Notes under the pieces: model-generated | Databases searched by the model: none | Told to the model about the DNA's origin: nothing | Seen by the model: only the letters and a program-made list of their open reading frames with translations | Origin: Stenotrophomonas sp. SAU14A_NAIMI4_8 | Lineage (GTDB): Bacteria; Pseudomonadota; Gammaproteobacteria; Xanthomonadales; Xanthomonadaceae | NCBI RefSeq assembly: GCF_003086695.1 | Contig: NZ_CP025999.1 | Location: 2,831,680 to 2,895,679 of the forward strand | Length of the DNA stretch: 64,000 bases | Direction: 5' to 3' | Position numbers and translations under genes: made by a program | Part shown: positions 6,939 through 55,036 of the stretch, piece by piece | How positions within the stretch are numbered: position 1 is the first letter of the stretch | Layout of the letters: the number at the start of each line of letters is the position of its first letter

Positions 6939-8192
6939 ATGGACATGAGCCCCTGGCTGTATGCCCTGTTCCAGTTCGCCTTCTTCTACCCGATGGTGAT
7001 GGCGTTCTTCTGGATGTCCGGTGGCCTGTACTACTTCTTCCGCCGCGAGCGGAAGTCGCGGCCGCGCAACGATCCGCCACCGATGGCCGAATACCCGTTC
7101 GCCACGCTGCTGATTCCCTGCCACAACGAATCGGACAACCTGGACGACACCATCGGCGCGGCGCTGGCCCAGCGCTACCCGGATTTCGAGGTGATCGCCA
7201 TCAACGATGGCAGCCGCGATGACACCGGCGCGCGCCTGGACGCACTGGCCGCACAGCACCCGCGCCTGCGCGTGGTGCACCTGGACCGCAACCTGGGCAA
7301 GGCCAATGCACTGCGCATGGGCGCCCTGGCCGCGCGTTCGGAATACCTGGTGTGCATCGATGGCGATGCGATGCTGGAAGAGTTCGCGATGCACTGGATG
7401 GTCTGGCACCTGACCAGCGGCCCACGCGTGGGCGCGGTGACCGGCAACCCGCGCATCCGCAACCGCTCCACCCTGCTGGGTCGCCTGCAGGTGGCCGAGT
7501 TCTCCTCGATCATCGGCATGATCAAGCGCGCCCAGCGCGTGTACGGGCGCATCTTCACCGTGTCCGGGGTGATCGCCGCGTTCCGCCGTACCGCCCTGCA
7601 CCGCATCGGCTACTGGGCCGACGACATGGTGACCGAGGACATCGACATCAGCTGGCGCCTGCAGCTGGACCACTGGGACATCCGTTACGAGCCCAACGCG
7701 CTGTGCTTCATCCTGATGCCCGAAACCCTGAAGGGTCTGTGGCGGCAGCGCCTGCGCTGGGCCCAGGGTGGCGTGGAGGTGCTGCTGCGGCATGGCACTT
7801 CGCTGTTCAGCTGGCGCAAGCGGCGGATGTGGGGGGTATTGCTGGAGTACATCCTGAGCGTGTTCTGGGCGTACACCATGTTGCTGATCGTGGTGCTGTG
7901 GGCGCTGGGCAAGTTCGTTCCGCTGCCGGCTCCGCTGTACATCGATACGCTGCTGCCGCAATGGCACGGCGTGATCCTGGCGCTGGTCTGTCTGCTGCAG
8001 TTCGCCAGCAGCCTGATCATCGACCGTCGTTACGAAACACACATTGGACGCAACTACTTCTGGGTCATCTGGTACCCGATGGCGTACTGGTTGATCAGCC
8101 TGTTCACCACTCTGGTGGCGTTGCCGAAGACGCTGTTCAAGCGCCGCGGCAAGCGCGCCACCTGGGTCAGCCCTGACCGGGGGATCCGATGA
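6939..8192 (+). CDS. pgaC: PNAG synthase PgaC (family 2 glycosyltransferase)
   Basis: A 417-residue inner-membrane processive GT2 enzyme that polymerises UDP-GlcNAc into PNAG. Key motifs are IPCHNE (59-64), AINDGS (87-92), DGD at 141-143, TED at 232-234, and QRLRW at 270-274, the set expected of an active processive synthase. There is one membrane helix at the N-terminus and several after about residue 285. GGAGAAG lies just before the ATG, which is 1 bp past the pgaB stop. In characterised systems synthesis requires PgaD, encoded next, and responds to c-di-GMP. Confidence 0.94.
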   Translation: MDMSPWLYALFQFAFFYPMVMAFFWMSGGLYYFFRRERKSRPRNDPPPMAEYPFATLLIPCHNESDNLDDTIGAALAQRYPDFEVIAINDGSRDDTGARLDALAAQHPRLRVVHLDRNLGKANALRMGALAARSEYLVCIDGDAMLEEFAMHWMVWHLTSGPRVGAVTGNPRIRNRSTLLGRLQVAEFSSIIGMIKRAQRVYGRIFTVSGVIAAFRRTALHRIGYWADDMVTEDIDISWRLQLDHWDIRYEPNALCFILMPETLKGLWRQRLRWAQGGVEVLLRHGTSLFSWRKRRMWGVLLEYILSVFWAYTMLLIVVLWALGKFVPLPAPLYIDTLLPQWHGVILALVCLLQFASSLIIDRRYETHIGRNYFWVIWYPMAYWLISLFTTLVALPKTLFKRRGKRATWVSPDRGIR

Positions 8193-8680
8193 GCACCGTA
8201 CGTGGCACCACCACCAAGAAACCGTCCAACCGCTTCGATTCGCGGTTGATCCAGAAGCCTCGCCAGCAGCCGCGCCTGCAGCGCACGGCCTGGGGCTTCG
8301 TCACCCTGGCCTTCTGGGGCTTCTACTTCTACCTGTGGGCACCACTGGTCACGCTGATCTCGTGGCTGCTGGGCGGGCAGATGGCGTTCGTGCAGTTGTA
8401 CCAGCACAAGCAGCATCTGGATCCGTTCGTGATGATCGCGCTGCCGATCATCCTGGTGTGCTGCGCGCTGCTGCTGATCGCCTGGGCCGAGTACAACCGC
8501 TACCGTTTCGCCGGCAAGGAGCGGCGCGCGCCGCGGGTGGATTCGAGCCGGGCGGAGATCGCCCATTCGCTGGGCGCCAGCGATGCACTGGCCGATCTGC
8601 TGGTGAATGCCAAGGCGGTGACGCTGCACATGGATGACAACGCACGCCCGGTCGGCCTGACGCGGCAGCCGCTTTTGTAA
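8189..8680 (+). CDS. pgaD: PNAG synthase auxiliary subunit PgaD
   Basis: A 163-residue protein with two hydrophobic segments (about residues 33-60 and 85-108) and a charged C-terminal tail, the usual PgaD plan. PgaD pairs with PgaC, and in E. coli the PgaC-PgaD pair is the c-di-GMP receptor. It overlaps pgaC by four bases (ATGA), implying coupled translation. PgaD is poorly conserved, so position and topology carry most of the call. The stop codon is directly followed by the hairpin module of repeat island A. Confidence 0.85.
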   Translation: MSTVRGTTTKKPSNRFDSRLIQKPRQQPRLQRTAWGFVTLAFWGFYFYLWAPLVTLISWLLGGQMAFVQLYQHKQHLDPFVMIALPIILVCCALLLIAWAEYNRYRFAGKERRAPRVDSSRAEIAHSLGASDALADLLVNAKAVTLHMDDNARPVGLTRQPLL

Positions 8681-8860
8681 GGGGTGTTTTTTTGGCAGGG
8701 CTTGCAGCCCTGCACCTGCTTCAAGCAAGAGCAACGTCAACAGCTGGGTATCCGTGGGTGGCGGGGCGGTGTGGGTGGGCAGGACACGCCGCAAGTACGT
8801 CCGTGTAGGCTCGTAGGCGCCATCCATGGCGCCTGCGGTCCTGCCCACCCACACCGCCCC
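8681..8860 (+). repeat. Stop-abutting 3' module A-left (hairpin, hexamers, long foldback)
   Basis: It begins on the base after the pgaD stop with GGGGTGTT and more Ts, then hairpin GCAGGGC-TTGCA-GCCCTGC at 8695-8713 and hexamer-like CAACGTCAAC at 8732-8741. A perfect 23-bp inverted repeat follows, 8763-8785 with 8838-8860, enclosing 52 bp that hold a GTAG palindrome (8813-8833, stem GGCGCCAT). The same order occurs after proA, xseA and the M48 protease gene. It probably acts as 3' end structure of the pga transcript; that role is inferred. Confidence 0.8.
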
Positions 8861-9455
8861 ACCTCTGACAGATTCTCGCGGCTGCTGGTAGGTGTCGACC
8901 TTGGTCGACACATCTGTCAGGTATCGAATGAATCATCCACGCATGGCGTGGATCTACTGACGGATGCCGAAACAATTCCGGGGTCAGAGCCCGTTGCGCA
9001 GCAACGGGATCCGACCCCGCTGCCGTTCTGACACAGCACGCCGACGGTAGGTGTCGACCTTGGTCGACACAGTAGATCCACGCCATGCGTGGATGAACTT
9101 CCATGAAAATCGAATATTGAATCCAGGGTCGGAGCCCGGTGCGCAGCAACGGGATCCGACCCCTTGCCGTTCCGGCAGCGCTTGCCAACGGTAGGTGTCG
9201 ACCTTGGTCGACACATCTGTCAGGTATCGAATGAATCATCCACGCATGGCGTGGATCTACTGACGGATGCCGAAACAATTCCGGGGTCAGAGCCCGTTGC
9301 CGTTCTGACACAGCACGCCGACGGTAGGTGTCGACCTTGGTCGACACAGTAGATCCACGCCATGCGTGGATGCATTTCCTCGGGGTCAGAGCCCGTTGCG
9401 CAGCAACGGGATCCGACCCCGCTGCCGTTCCGACAGATCGCGGGACACTGTCAGA

Positions 9456-9721
9456 GGCGGGGCGGTGTCGGAATGCGGGGTGTCAGCCGCATGGATGCGG
9501 CTGCCAAGCCTACAGGGGTGAGGGCGCTTTGCTTGCGAAGCACTGCTTCGCAAGCGCCCGAACGCACAGCCGCCAGCGGCTGGGCCGGGCCCCGGAGGGG
9601 GACTTGCGGCGTCCCCGCATTCCAACACCGCCCCGCCATCCCACGGACATCCCGCTTCTGACGTTGACGTTGACGTTGACGTGCAGCAGGTGCAGGGCCG
9701 CAGGCCCTGCCGCAACGCCCC
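9456..9721 (-). repeat. Stop-abutting 3' module A-right (after proA)
   Basis: Read on the minus strand, the proA TAG is directly followed by GGGGCGTTGCG, the hairpin GCAGGGCC-TGC-GGCCCTGC (9692-9710), nearly four CAACGT hexamers (9661-9682), and a 25-bp inverted repeat (9613-9637 with 9456-9480, one mismatch). The loop here is 132 bp rather than 52 bp. It carries a GTAG palindrome (9484-9513) plus an extra perfect hairpin GCTTGCGAAGCA/TGCTTCGCAAGC (9531-9555). Confidence 0.8.
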
Positions 9722-10990
9722 CTACCGGGTCTGCCCTTCGCCGCGCACCACGAACCGTTCCACGGTCAGCGCTTCCAGGCCCATCGGCCCATACGCGTGC
9801 AGGCGCGTGGTGGAAATGCCGATCTCACTCCCCAGCCCCAGCTGGCCACCGTCGGAGAAACGCGAGGACGCGTTGACCATTACCACCGCCGAACGCAGCG
9901 CGTTGACGAAGCGCTCGGCATTGCCGGCGTCTTCGGTCGCAATCACTTCGGTATGGTCGGAGGTATACGTGCGGATGTGGGCGATTGCCGCATCCAGGTC
10001 ATCGACCACGCCCACTGCCAGCACCAGATCGAGGAATTCGGCAGCGAAATCCTCGTCGGTAGCGGCCGTGCTGCCCGGAAGCAACGACTGCGCGCGCGCG
10101 TCGGCACGCAGCTCCACCCCGCGCTCGCCCAGCGCCTGCGCCGCACGCGGCAGGAATGCCTCGGCCACGTCGCGGTGCACCAGCAGCGTTTCCAGCGAAT
10201 TGCAGGCCGCCGGGCGGCTGCACTTGCCATCCACCAGCAGCGCAACGGCCTCGTCCAGATCGGCGCTGGCATCCACGAACAGATGGCAGACACCCTTGTA
10301 GTGCTTGATGACCGGGACCCGCGCGTGCTCGGCAACGAAGCGGATCAGGCCTTCACCGCCACGCGGAATGGCCAGGTCGATCAGCTCGTGCAGCTGCAGC
10401 AGTTCCAGCATGGCCTCGCGGCGCAGATCGGTCAGCACGGTCACCGCCGCCGGCGGCACGCCGTTGGCCTTCAGCGCACCGGCCAGGGCCTGGGCGATGG
10501 CAGTGTTGGAATGGATGGCCTCGGAACCACCGCGCAGGATCACCCCGTTGCCGGCCTTCAGGCACAGCGCGGCGGCCTCTGCGGTCACGTTCGGGCGTGC
10601 CTCGTAGATCATCGCGATCACGCCCAGCGGCACGCGCACCTTCTGCACGCGGATGCCATTGGGGCGCACATCGTCGCGGGTTACCTGCCCGACCGGATCG
10701 GGCAGCGCAGCCACGTCGCGCACCGCTTCGGCCATGCCGAACAACCGCGCCGGGTCCAACGCCAGGCGGTCCAGCATCGCCGTACCCACGCCTTTTTCCC
10801 GCGCTGCTGCCAGATCGCGTGCGTTGCCGGCCAGGATCAGGCCAGCGTTCACTTCCAGAGCCTGAGCCATGGACAGCAGCAGCGCACGGCGCGCCGCAGT
10901 GTCCAGCCCGGCAACCACCGTGGCCGCATCACGGCAGGCCCGCGCCTGCGCTTCGATTTCACTCATGGGGATGTCCTGCAGTTCGTTCAT
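9722..10990 (-). CDS. proA: Gamma-glutamyl phosphate reductase
   Basis: A 422-residue cytoplasmic enzyme for the second step of proline synthesis, the NADPH reduction of glutamyl-5-phosphate to the semialdehyde. It shows the aldehyde-dehydrogenase-like fold, with [10 protein letters not shown], the catalytic Cys in [12 protein letters not shown], and [20 protein letters not shown] near the C-terminus. It overlaps proB by ATGA (10987-10990); a second ATG eight codons later is possible. It is the last gene of the long arg-pro unit. Its TAG stop, in CGGTAG, abuts repeat island A. Confidence 0.97.
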
Positions 10991-20608: not shown

Positions 20609-20787
20609 GACGAACAGCAGAAAGCTCCGGTTACCCAGCGGAAATGTGGGGTTCCGGTCGACGGGCACGCGACGTCATGCCAGTGGCCTGGCGGGCGGCG
20701 CTGCTGTCGTGCTGGAAGTCGGTGAGCTTCATGGCCGAACATCTTTGCATGGGCGGGGGGCCTGCGCAAGGGGCAGGCGTCGCAGAA

Positions 20788-52000: not shown

Positions 52001-53332
52001 ATGCAATCTCGCAACAACGACATCCTCACCCCCAGCCAGCTCAACACGCTGGCCCGCGATCTGCTGGAAGGCAGCTTCCCGGCCATCTGGGTGGAGGCAG
52101 AACTGGGCAGCGTGGCCCGTCCCGCCTCCGGGCACCTGTACTTCACCCTGAAGGATGCACGCGCGCAGCTGCGGGCTGCCATGTTCCGGATGAAGGCGCA
52201 GTACCTGAAGTTCGTGCCACGCGAGGGCATGCGCGTGCTGGTACGCGGCAAGGTGACGCTGTATGACGCGCGCGGTGAGTACCAGATGGTGCTCGACCAT
52301 ATGGAAGAGGCCGGCGAAGGCGCCCTGCGCCGCGCGTTCGAGGAACTGAAGGCACGGCTGCAGGCCGAGGGGCTGTTCGACCCCGCGCGCAAGCGGCCCA
52401 TGCCCGCGCACGTGCAACGCCTGGCGGTGATCACCTCACCCACCGGTGCCGCCGTGCGCGACGTGCTGAGTGTGCTGGCGCGGCGCTTCCCGCTGCTGGA
52501 AGTGGATCTGCTGCCGACCCTGGTACAGGGCGGCAGTGCTGCCGCGCAGATCACCCGGTTGCTGCAGGCCGCCGATGCCAGCGGCCGCTACGATGTGATC
52601 CTGCTGACCCGTGGTGGTGGTTCACTGGAAGACCTGTGGGCCTTCAACGACGAGGCGCTGGCCCGCGCGATCGCTGCCAGCGGCACGCCGGTGGTCTCGG
52701 CCGTCGGCCACGAGACCGACTTCAGCCTCAGCGATTTCGCCGCCGATCTGCGCGCACCCACCCCGTCGGTGGCCGCCGAGCTGCTGGTGCCGGACCAGCG
52801 CGAACTGGCCCTGCGCCTGCGCCGCAGCGCGGCGCGCATGGTGCAGCTGCAGCGGCATACGATGCAGCAGGCGATGCAGCGCGCCGACCGTGCGCTGTTG
52901 CGTCTGAACGCGCAGAGCCCGCAGGCGCGACTGGACCTGCTGCGCCGCCGCCAGGTGGACCTGGGCCGACGCCTGCATGCCGCGTTCAATCAACAGCAGG
53001 AGCGTCGTGCGGCGCGCCTGCGCCATGCCGCGGCCGTGCTGCGCGCGCACCATCCGCAGCGCCAGCTGGACGAGATGCAGCGGCGCCTGCTCGTATTGCG
53101 CGGGCGTCCGCAGGCCGCATTGCAGCGGCTGCTGGAACGCGATGCCCTGCGCCTGCGCGGGCTGGCCCGATCACTTGAGGCGGTCAGTCCGCTGGCCACC
53201 GTGGCGCGTGGCTACAGCATCCTGACCCGTGCTGACGACGGCGCGCTGGTGCGGCAGGTCGACCAGGTGCAGCCGGGCGATGCGCTGCAGGCCCGCGTGG
53301 GCGACGGCGTGATCGACGTACAGGTCAAGTGA
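52001..53332 (+). CDS. xseA: Exodeoxyribonuclease VII large subunit
   Basis: A 443-residue nuclease subunit. The OB-fold domain about 8-105 ([27 protein letters not shown]), the catalytic core about 125-320 ([52 protein letters not shown]), and a coiled-coil tail ending in [13 protein letters not shown] at 52001. xseB is not nearby. The TGA stop is directly followed by the repeat island B module. Confidence 0.96.
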
Positions 53333-53539
53333 GGGGTTGTCCGGCAGGGCTGCGCCCTGCACCCCTGTAGAGTCGAGCCATGCTCGACTGAAGCAACGGC
53401 AACGTCAACGTCAACGTCTAGAGCCTGCATTCCGTGGGATGGCGGGGCGGTGTCGGATTGCGGGGACGCCGCAAGTACGTCCGTGTAGGCTTGGCAGCCG
53501 CATCCATGCGGCTGACACCCCGCAATCCGACACCGCCCC
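53333..53539 (+). repeat. Stop-abutting 3' module B-left (after xseA)
   Basis: It starts on the base after the xseA stop: GGGGTTGTCCG, hairpin GCAGGGC-TGC-GCCCTGC (53344-53360), an inserted GTAG palindrome (53367-53389), four CAACGT/CAACGG hexamers (53394-53417), then a perfect 22-bp inverted repeat (53444-53465 with 53518-53539) around a GTAG palindrome (53485-53514). Same order as the modules after pgaD and proA. Confidence 0.8.
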
Positions 53540-53956
53540 ACCTCTGACAGATTCCCGCGATCTGTCGGAATGGCATGGGGTCGGATCCCGTTGCGTAGCA
53601 ACGGGCTCTGACCCCAGAATTCTTTTGGATATCTGACAGATTCATCCACGCATGGCGTGGATCTACTGTGTCGACCAAGGTCGACACCTACCAGAGCAGA
53701 ACACCGTGTCAAAGGCGGCTGTGGGTAGGTGTCGACCTTGGTCGACACGTCTGTCAGATGTCGAATGATTCATCCACGCATGGCGTGGATCTACTGTGTC
53801 GACCAAGGTCGACACCTACCAGAGCAGAACGCCGTGTCGAAGGCGGCTGTGTGTAGGTGTCGACCTTGGTCGACACGTCTGTCAGATGTCGAATGAATCA
53901 TCCACGCGTGGCGTGGATCTACTGTGTCGACCTTGGTCGACACCTACCAGAGCAGA

Positions 53957-54050
53957 ACACCACCCCGCCATCCCCAGGAAACCCGCCTTTGACGTTGCCG
54001 TTGCCCTGGCTTCCAGCAGGTGCAGGGCTGCAAGCCCTGCCGAACACCCC
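53957..54050 (-). repeat. Stop-abutting 3' module B-right (truncated)
   Basis: Read on the minus strand from the M48 gene TAG: GGGGTGTTCG, hairpin GCAGGGC-TTGCA-GCCCTGC (54022-54040), CAACGG-CAACGT (53990-54004), then GGGGATGGCGGGGTGGTG, which matches the entry to the long foldback of the other modules but stops before any inner stem. Confidence 0.75.
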
Positions 54051-54950
54051 CTACCGGGCCTGCTCGCAGAATTTCTGCCGGTACTCGAGGGCCTTGGGCA
54101 TCAGCGCCTGCAGGTTCTGGATGCGGGTGCCGGGATTGGGATGGGTCGACGAAAACTCCGGCGGCGACTGGCCACCACTGGCCTGCCCCATGCGCTGCCA
54201 CAGCGGAATCGCCTCGCGCGGGTCAAAGCACGCCGCCGCCGCCAGCATCAGCCCCACTTCATCGGCCTGCGTTTCGTGGCTGCGAGCGTACGGCAAGAGA
54301 TAGCCATAGCCCATCGCCGACATCATCATCTGTTGCTGCTGCGCATCCATGCCGCTGGCCGCACCGGCCATCTGCCCGATCTGGGTCAGCTTCTGCTGGG
54401 CCATGCGCTGTGCACCATGGCGCAGCAGCGCATGGGCGATCTCGTGCCCCATCACCACCGCCATGGCATCGGTCGTGCGCGCCACCGGTACCAGCCCGGT
54501 GTACACGGCCATCTTGCCGCCGGGCAGACAGAAGGCGTTGGCCTGGTCACTGGGAATGACGTTCACTTCCCACTCGAAATCGCGGGAGAAGTGCCCCGGC
54601 TGCAACCCGTGTTCCTGCGCCAGCGCGGTTTCCACCACGTCCACCTTGGCGATCAGGCGCTGGGCGATGGCGCGGATATCGCGCGAGATCTGCGCGTTGG
54701 GGTCCAGCGGACGCTCCTGCGCCAGGATCTGCTGGTAGGCCTGCAAGCCCAACGCACGTTCTTCGCTGGCATCCAGGCTGCTGTCGATCAGCACCTTCTC
54801 GCCGGTGTACGGGTCCACGGTGCGGTTGGAAAACCAGTAGTACGCTGCATAGCCGGCAGCCAGCAGCAGTACCCACCAGCGGATGTTGCCGAACAGGCCG
54901 CGCCGTGGCGAGCCCTGTTGCGGCGAGCGGGAGAAGGGATCGTTGCGCAT
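54051..54950 (-). CDS. M48 family membrane metalloprotease
   Basis: A 299-residue protein with one N-terminal membrane helix (about 24-42) and an exported M48 domain. Zinc motif VVMGHEIAHALLRHG; the third ligand is in SHETQADEVGL; NAFCLPGGKMAVYTGL precedes them, as in the BepA/LoiP/YcaL group that acts on outer-membrane or envelope proteins. ATG 54950 omits a charged upstream extension. The TAG stop (CGGTAG) abuts island B. Confidence 0.9.
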   Translation of the reverse strand: MRNDPFSRSPQQGSPRRGLFGNIRWWVLLLAAGYAAYYWFSNRTVDPYTGEKVLIDSSLDASEERALGLQAYQQILAQERPLDPNAQISRDIRAIAQRLIAKVDVVETALAQEHGLQPGHFSRDFEWEVNVIPSDQANAFCLPGGKMAVYTGLVPVARTTDAMAVVMGHEIAHALLRHGAQRMAQQKLTQIGQMAGAASGMDAQQQQMMMSAMGYGYLLPYARSHETQADEVGLMLAAAACFDPREAIPLWQRMGQASGGQSPPEFSSTHPNPGTRIQNLQALMPKALEYRQKFCEQAR

Positions 54951-55036
54951 CGGCAGGTCTTCCGGCGGACCCCGCCGGCCGGCGGGCACGCTGCAATCTT
55001 AGTGCCACGCCGCCTGCGCGGGGTGAAACAGGCGCA

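Follow-up and report, generated by a model that had tools for sequence, protein, structure and literature searches.

The DNA analysed here, which we call the window, is a stretch of 64,000 nucleotides (G000:C1:2831680-2895679) from a Stenotrophomonas genome of 4.48 Mb. It holds four GCAGGGC-N3-8-GCCCTGC palindromes, at 8695, 9692, 53344 and 54022, against 0.05 expected from shuffled sequences, and these mark the outer arms of two non-coding blocks, each lying between two convergent genes. The features of the two regions, with the evidence for each, are as follows.

8189..8680, plus strand: pgaD, with its TAA stop at 8678-8680 and the arm starting on the next base (ORF list; Pfam PgaD, E=1.2e-28; sequence)
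8681..8694, plus strand: block 1 left arm, terminal G/T spacer GGGGTGTTTTTTTG (sequence)
8695..8713, plus strand: block 1 left arm, palindrome GCAGGGC-TTGCA-GCCCTGC (pattern search; a hairpin on folding)
8714..8759, plus strand: block 1 left arm, ACCTGC and tract of CAACG-type hexamers (sequence, arm profile)
8760..8863, plus strand: block 1 left arm, large hairpin with insert GCCGCAAGTACGTCC (folding, core motif)
8864..9456, no strand assigned: block 1 interior, with SMAG-type GTAG REPs and GGGGTC..GACCCC palindromes (sequence; SMAG as described in the parts of PMC2613905 used here)
9457..9637, minus strand: block 1 right arm, inverted large-hairpin region (sequence)
9638..9691, minus strand: block 1 right arm, hexamer tract (CAACGT on the minus strand) and ACCTGC (sequence)
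9692..9710, minus strand: block 1 right arm, palindrome reading GCAGGGC-CTGCG-GCCCTGC on the minus strand (pattern search)
9711..9721, minus strand: block 1 right arm, terminal spacer GGGGCGTTGCG (gene-call table)
9722..10990, minus strand: proA, with its TAG stop at 9722-9724 (NCBIfam proA, orthologues)
52001..53332, plus strand: xseA, with a TGA stop (NCBIfam xseA, E=1.3e-142; gene call)
53333..53343, plus strand: block 2 left arm, terminal spacer GGGGTTGTCCG (sequence)
53344..53360, plus strand: block 2 left arm, palindrome GCAGGGC-TGC-GCCCTGC (pattern search)
53441..53542, plus strand: block 2 left arm, large hairpin with insert GACGCCGCAAGTACGTCC (sequence)
53543..54021, no strand assigned: block 2 interior (REPs, palindromes) and inner right arm, with the large hairpin reduced (sequence)
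54022..54040, minus strand: block 2 right arm, palindrome (pattern search)
54041..54050, minus strand: block 2 right arm, terminal spacer GGGGTGTTCG (gene-call table)
54051..54989, minus strand: M48 peptidase gene, with its TAG stop at 54051-54053 (Pfam Peptidase_M48, E=6e-35)

GGGG lies directly 3' of the stop codon of all four genes (TAA in pgaD, TAG in proA and the M48 gene, TGA in xseA), and all four modules begin on the base next to the stop, exactly as the earlier note on this DNA had described; the CAACGT-type hexamers that it placed downstream of the palindrome are likewise present. Beyond that account, the module copies turn out to be arms of inverted pairs. The region of the left arm of block 1 (8678-8905) folds with a z-score of -7.05, and the core motif of its large hairpin recurs in 36 of the 82 arms of the genome. 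Next to an inner hairpin, the large hairpin at 8760-8863 and its equivalents hold an insert, GCCGCAAGTACGTCC-TGTAGGCT, that is asymmetric and conserved. A search of Rfam at the gathering threshold returned no match at the window arms; a match elsewhere in the window, at 20611-20734 on the minus strand, is the Xanthomonadaceae sRNA Xoo5.

To survey the arms beyond the window we used 55 stretches of this genome, calling genes with a simple codon-score script whose start codons and start distances are approximate. The whole genome contains 86 palindromes, 79 of them oriented by the AC that follows. From 74 of its palindromes we built an arm profile of about 85 nt, and a match was counted as an arm if it started at model position 15 or lower, shorter remnants being dropped. 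The profile recovered 80 arms in the genome at an E-value of 1e-6 and 82 at 1e-4, of which 49 face a gene 3' end and 33 a gene 5' end. In 45 of the 49 gene-end-facing arms the stem lies within 19 nt of the stop codon, and the same holds for 25/26 and 22/22 such arms in genomes of two other species. The stop-to-stem spacer of the 92 stop-abutting arms of the three genomes spans 1-19 nt and is composed of 50% G and 34% T. The earlier note had proposed tabulating distances to stops genome-wide, with varied distances as the sign of a coincidence; those found for gene-end-facing arms are consistently short, also in an orthologue set (86/86 at 3-18 nt; see below). The small numbers within the window aside, nothing favours a coincidence of four copies, and replication in three genomes and in the orthologue set makes it hardly conceivable. 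The note's further point, that random landing of a repeat would not produce a zero offset, is upheld by a control: REPs of six typed SMAG patterns outside the blocks (128 REPs within blocks were excluded) lie 3-335 nt from the stop that they face, and 4/22 lie within 19 nt. The note's GGGG start describes the four window modules but is not an invariant rule, being seen in 14/45 stop-abutting arms genome-wide (against 0/257 other genes), with a GG start in 31/45 against 23/257. Thus, the zero offset is general, whereas the GGGG start is variable among arms.

No arm among the 163 of the three genomes falls inside a called gene. Of the 79 oriented stems, three do (L008, one of L045, and L051), and these are outside the arm counts. 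Among 79 arms we found no same-strand gene ending within the arm; at L053 an opposite-strand gene ends within the inner part of one. In a set of 110 loci, which overlaps the three-genome sets and repeats orthologous loci, 160 arms (10 further arms near locus ends being dropped) comprise 92 at a stop, 64 facing a start, three after a terminator and one (L226) that overlaps a called gene.

The arms facing gene starts make up 66 of the 163 and have a G/T spacer and palindrome identical in kind to those at stops: GGG occurs within 26 nt of the stem in 62 of the 66, and on the arm strand the terminal 11 nt are rich in G and T, just as they are at stops. Since start-facing arms carry identical sequence, the G/T spacer is part of the arm and independent of transcript direction. 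The arms of the three genomes form 56 outward-facing pairs and no inward-facing ones, with 51 arms having no profile-passing partner. Spacing within the outward pairs is 143-1333 nt, delimiting a non-coding block of 0.1-1.3 kb; the pairs of this genome comprise 16 between a stop and a start, 10 between two stops and three between two starts. Taken in arm orientation, the loop of the palindrome is TGC or TTGCA in 125/163 and never GCA or TGCAA. This agreement of asymmetric loops in arm orientation implies that the palindrome belongs to the inverted repeat. Inward of the palindrome follow ACC, CAACG-type hexamers and often the large hairpin, the stem of which varies among copies yet stays mostly complementary, and the space between the arms is occupied by SMAG-type REPs and GGGGTC..GACCCC palindromes (sequences of eight loci included).

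Some local peculiarities accompany these arrangements. At L006, L013, L020, L023 and L041 the start-facing arm lies 23-39 nt from the called start and may overlap the -35 region; at L023, TAGAAT stands immediately ahead of the ATG. At L028 and L014 an arm occurs twice in one direction, 948 and 317 nt apart, and at L014, apparently also at L028, the end of the adjacent gene is duplicated with it, which suggests that blocks seed local duplications.

The earlier note had offered a 3' UTR element tied to stop codons, either a terminator or a stabiliser, as one reading of the module. As an intrinsic terminator it fails: a T-run follows the palindrome in none of the 92 stop-abutting arms, and terminator scans of the window gave no site at the first block and one at the second, within the M48 coding region. 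Nor can the arms be held to have replaced native intrinsic terminators, since arm-free orthologues rarely have one (5/150 arm-free ends by scan, with 2/80 for arm-bearing ends, although such scans may undercount by missing T-runs that pair with upstream A's). A tie to stops is contradicted by the 66/163 arms that face starts with spacer and palindrome alike. A broader version of this idea is that of a hairpin selected in the 3' UTR to stabilise or end the mRNA, or to slow the terminating ribosome, with selection holding the stem 3-19 nt past the stop. It would account for the stem position in all 86 orthologous arm-bearing ends (3-18 nt), and the 163 arms include compensated stems, GCCGGGC/GCCCGGC three times and GCCGGGT/ACCCGGC once; moreover, E. 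coli REPs reportedly lower translation only when less than 16 nt from the stop, according to the sections of PMC12306157 used here. Set against this are the start-facing arms, the missing T-run in 92/92 and the scarcity of terminators in arm-free orthologues (5/150), which leaves no visible replacement by arms. As start-facing arms are identical and no T-run follows the stem in the 92 stop-abutting arms, we regard a 3'-UTR role as an improbable cause of the pattern, although stop-facing arms may have such a role, their stem lying close to the range in which the E. coli REPs reportedly act.

Five gene-end-facing arms in the three genomes lie more than 19 nt from the stop, and in each of them something stands between stop and arm. 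At L024, as also at L208, L230 and L233, it is a hairpin with a T-run (CCCCGCGCAAGCGGGGTTTTTT), the arm beginning a few bases further on; the terminator of L024 is a reading by eye that the consensus scan lacks, perhaps owing to pairing of the T-run with A's that precede the stem. Three tRNA-Arg genes and a terminator intervene on the minus strand of L021 and at L308 of a second species (G043), the terminator of L308 being listed by the consensus scan. On the plus strand of L021 the intervening element is a SMAG-type REP that is also the source of the TAG stop, and at L014 it is a tandem duplicate of the arm including the last codons of the gene. These exceptions follow terminators or other elements; therefore, they fit a rule by which the arm begins at the last functional base and not at the stop as such. 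Insertion targeted to stops is excluded as a general rule by the same far-off arms behind terminators or other repeats, together with the 66/163 arms that face starts. The arms form outward pairs directed toward stops and starts alike, and they begin immediately behind the stop or, where a terminator has been kept, behind that.

For eight gene ends we compared 26-31 genomes each, running the profile over 700 nt downstream; offsets and stop positions were taken from this profile, as the pattern scan behind the 5/150 and 2/80 terminator counts covered the first 48 nt and took some degenerate arms for arm-free ends. The stem lies 3-18 nt past the stop in all 86 orthologous ends with a facing arm. 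Among the 144 ends without a facing arm, the stop position is unchanged in 20/20 for mdoG, 17/17 for RR, 17/18 for tdk, 9/19 for the L047 gene, 8/16 for recO, 4/14 for M48, 2/26 for proA and 1/14 for xseA. The arm-free proteins are longer by 1 to 14 codons in 24/26 for proA, 13/14 for xseA and 10/14 for M48, and the proA stop of the window precedes that of most arm-free orthologues by at least one codon. The arms may thus have shortened these three proteins. In xseA the short arm-bearing proteins end in V-K and the longer ones in T-A-V-K or alike, a pattern that would fit an internal deletion of three codons that left the stop in place. The L047 gene ends in GGG-TGA in 6/7 arm-bearing genomes, as against GGG in 1/19 others. 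In the closer species G043 and G088 the stop position is kept at 12 of 14 ends compared, some of which still have an arm or its remnant (four stop-side and two start-side queries had no match).

These comparisons bear on an alternative that the earlier note also raised, in which the stop is the insertion site of the element or is brought by it. Its terminus would carry a TAG, like that of GTAG REPs, which becomes the stop of the neighbouring gene. TAG is enriched beside arms (15/45 vs 19/258 elsewhere, p about 1e-5), all five arm-bearing proA ends are TAG with 24/26 arm-free ones running longer, and xseA and M48 share the tendency of proA. GTA also stands ahead of the first GGG of 7/62 start-facing arms, and the termini of GTAG REPs often provide the TAG stop codons of their neighbours, as noted in the portions of PMC3733652 that we draw on. 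On the other hand, the stop position is the same without an arm in mdoG, RR and tdk, as it is at 12/14 ends in the closer species, some with arm remnants, and 19 of the 45 stops beside arms are TGA and 11 TAA. As a general rule the proposal is accordingly rejected, because stop positions are kept in arm-free orthologues; it is retained for proA and may hold for xseA and M48. As the explanation of the whole pattern we give it little weight. We also observed that at L065, L066 and L070 the TAG stop of proA is supplied by SMAG-type REPs, the arm being absent.

Two clean empty sites in G043 allow a direct comparison with block-bearing loci of this genome, the stop positions being equal in both. 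At L025, G043 has 55 nt between the stop and a conserved promoter-side flank; here the block is present, the 55 nt are gone and conservation of the flank reaches as far as the G-run. In G043 the two convergent stops of L036 are 10 nt apart, and here the block directly abuts both. What these sites display is loss of the spacer, with no duplication visible, and none of the loci compared revealed an insertion event or a target duplication. On the start side of L025, the GTAG adjoining the G-run is shared by the G043 empty site, which speaks against its supply by the arm. Convergent spacers that lack arms are often short, some measuring 0 and a few more than 100 nt: between recO and RR they are 4 nt (GGGG) in G011 and 9 in G030, between mdoG and tdk 0 in five genomes, and between xseA and the M48 gene 7-81 nt in 10/13, the others being longer. 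The arm-bearing regions at these three loci are mostly 350-1042 nt. Between mdoG and tdk, seven genomes (L345-L374) have a stretch of 820-862 nt, perhaps a gene, where others have a block or nothing.

A single palindrome with both terminal spacers occurs at recO/RR in G086 and at L012, L023 and L048 in G088. We read these forms as a probable collapse between two palindromes, though the opposite order is also possible. They had prompted the idea that the palindrome is a direct target duplication, which is ruled out by the loop orientation, as this identifies inverted repeats.

The arms have a restricted distribution. Copy number is bimodal in 91 genomes of the genus, 43 having 33-92 oriented palindromes and 48 having 0-4. 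Of 247 genomes of the family, 13 belong to this genus and seven of these have the GGGG-palindrome-ACC pattern, which none of the 234 genomes of 53 other genera has. Among the 80 of 120 stretches listed, records with an exact match to a 26-base piece of the arm go under Stenotrophomonas or names long in use for it, mostly S. maltophilia, apart from one odd bin; this (L221) is a contig binned as a Rickettsia endosymbiont with a Stenotrophomonas arm, and is probably mis-binned. A search of plasmids and phages with window positions 8681-8905 gave zero matches. Arms of G043 and G088 stand at genes, and at ends of them, that also bear arms here in 32/42 and 35/39 cases, respectively; in the reverse direction only 20 (G043) and 22 (G088) of 50 arm-bearing loci of this genome were matched, a low figure due in part to the sampling of those genomes by exact palindrome. 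This one-sided sharing indicates that many loci are old and that gain and loss continue.

A distant species with four stems (G031) has blocks at mdoG/tdk and proA/pgaD, loci that are also occupied in the S. maltophilia complex. Its mdoG spacer GTGGTTTGGGATT is identical in G015, G017 and G073, and its mdoG/tdk block is most similar to that of the same locus in G003 (89.9% over 404), blocks at other loci matching it at 82-84% over about 510-530. The best matches of its proA/pgaD block are other loci. Judged by these alignments, lateral transfer into G031 appears supported at mdoG and not at proA, and recombination in flanking genes would be a fair but partial account of how its blocks arrived.

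On balance, we lean towards viewing the module as an outer arm that belongs to a paired inverted repeat block, non-coding and filling gaps between genes, and its zero offset from stops as a boundary effect, the intervening DNA probably having been lost. The blocks would have spread in the ancestor of the S. maltophilia complex, probably as BIME/REP-type repeats acting at the DNA level, and then have descended vertically with gains, losses and some interspecies transfer by recombination in flanking genes; their mobility is accordingly a matter of reconstruction. Neutral spacer between a neighbour and the arm would be removed, while a stop, terminator or promoter would not be removable, so that the arm comes to abut the last functional base because spare intervening DNA is likely lost and not because the stop is recognised. 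We infer this loss of spacer from the two empty sites and from the convergent loci with short arm-free spacers. Collapse between the two palindromes would yield the single-palindrome forms of some species, and the excess of TAG would stem from some genes having had their final bases replaced by the end of an arm. Several points weigh against this boundary effect: a deletion that ends exactly at a stop is without a demonstrated mechanism, most arm-free orthologues of proA, xseA and M48 run further, and the GGG-TGA bias at L047, the one-sided conservation of loci and the overlap at L226 also sit poorly with it.

A more speculative proposition, which we think doubtful, is that the blocks are portable and direction-independent gene boundaries that insulate neighbours, their arms, devoid of a U-tract, having become the 3' edge for about 45 genes and, on the upstream side, the edge for about 30 others, with the ends marking base by base where indispensable DNA stops. 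Should the boundary effect hold, the outer ends of the blocks would be a natural deletion map for dozens of genes, locating the limit of their functional DNA at a stop, terminator or promoter, and a strict stop-abutting pattern, easily taken for a 3'-UTR function, could arise for an element that equally abuts starts. The excess of TAG further suggests that repeats reshape stop-codon usage.

Several known systems resemble the arms or blocks in part. SMAG or GTAG REPs, as treated in the passages of PMC2613905 and PMC3733652 consulted, are likewise small intergenic palindromes of high copy number in the same species complex, and SMAG REPs are present within the blocks. The arms differ from them in the spacer before the stem, the outward pairing and the proximity to stops (45/49 vs 4/22 within 19 nt); in place of a GTAG at the foot of the palindrome they have the 1-19 nt spacer, with GTA in 7/62 start-facing arms. 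The palindrome GCAGGGC..GCCCTGC is absent from the 13 REP classes of Table 2 in PMC3686654, and the arm thus does not fall among the REP classes with a cognate RAYT given in that table. The TIRs of TIRYTs, in the description that PMC3733652 gives, are inverted, partly self-complementary and provided with a G-rich motif in S. maltophilia, like the arms. The difference is one of position: the arm palindrome does not occur in about 1.5 kb flanking the five Y1 transposase genes of this genome, and a link of the arms to these transposases is rejected accordingly. One Y1 transposase gene, at L060 (G000:C1 about 1203886-1204209), has GGGGTCAGA..TCTGACCCC palindromes on both sides, of the kind found in block interiors and not of the arm kind, and is likely the TIRYT of that palindrome family.

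A literature search judged by titles and the opening lines of abstracts retrieved no description of the arm, which may sit in supplements, figures or the FEMS 2010 SMAG paper. E. coli REPs near stops also place a hairpin within 15 nt of the stop, with 446 of 4,072 predicted REPs near stop codons (PMC12306157, there citing earlier work, in the sections used); the arms differ in the regularity of this placement (45/49 facing arms within 19 nt) and in facing starts too. MITEs, like the blocks, are non-coding and bounded by inverted repeats, and the loop orientation and outward pairs (51 arms being partnerless by profile) identify such terminal inverted repeats here; we found neither a target duplication nor a parent transposon for the arms, the transposase search covering the Y1 family. 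BIMEs and REPINs are mosaics of inverted palindromes between genes, as are the blocks, with 56 outward pairs in three genomes and REPs in the intergenic DNA of the eight locus sequences. Unlike these, the blocks have fixed outer arms of about 85 nt, to which a large hairpin is added in many, and they terminate directly against functional sequence.
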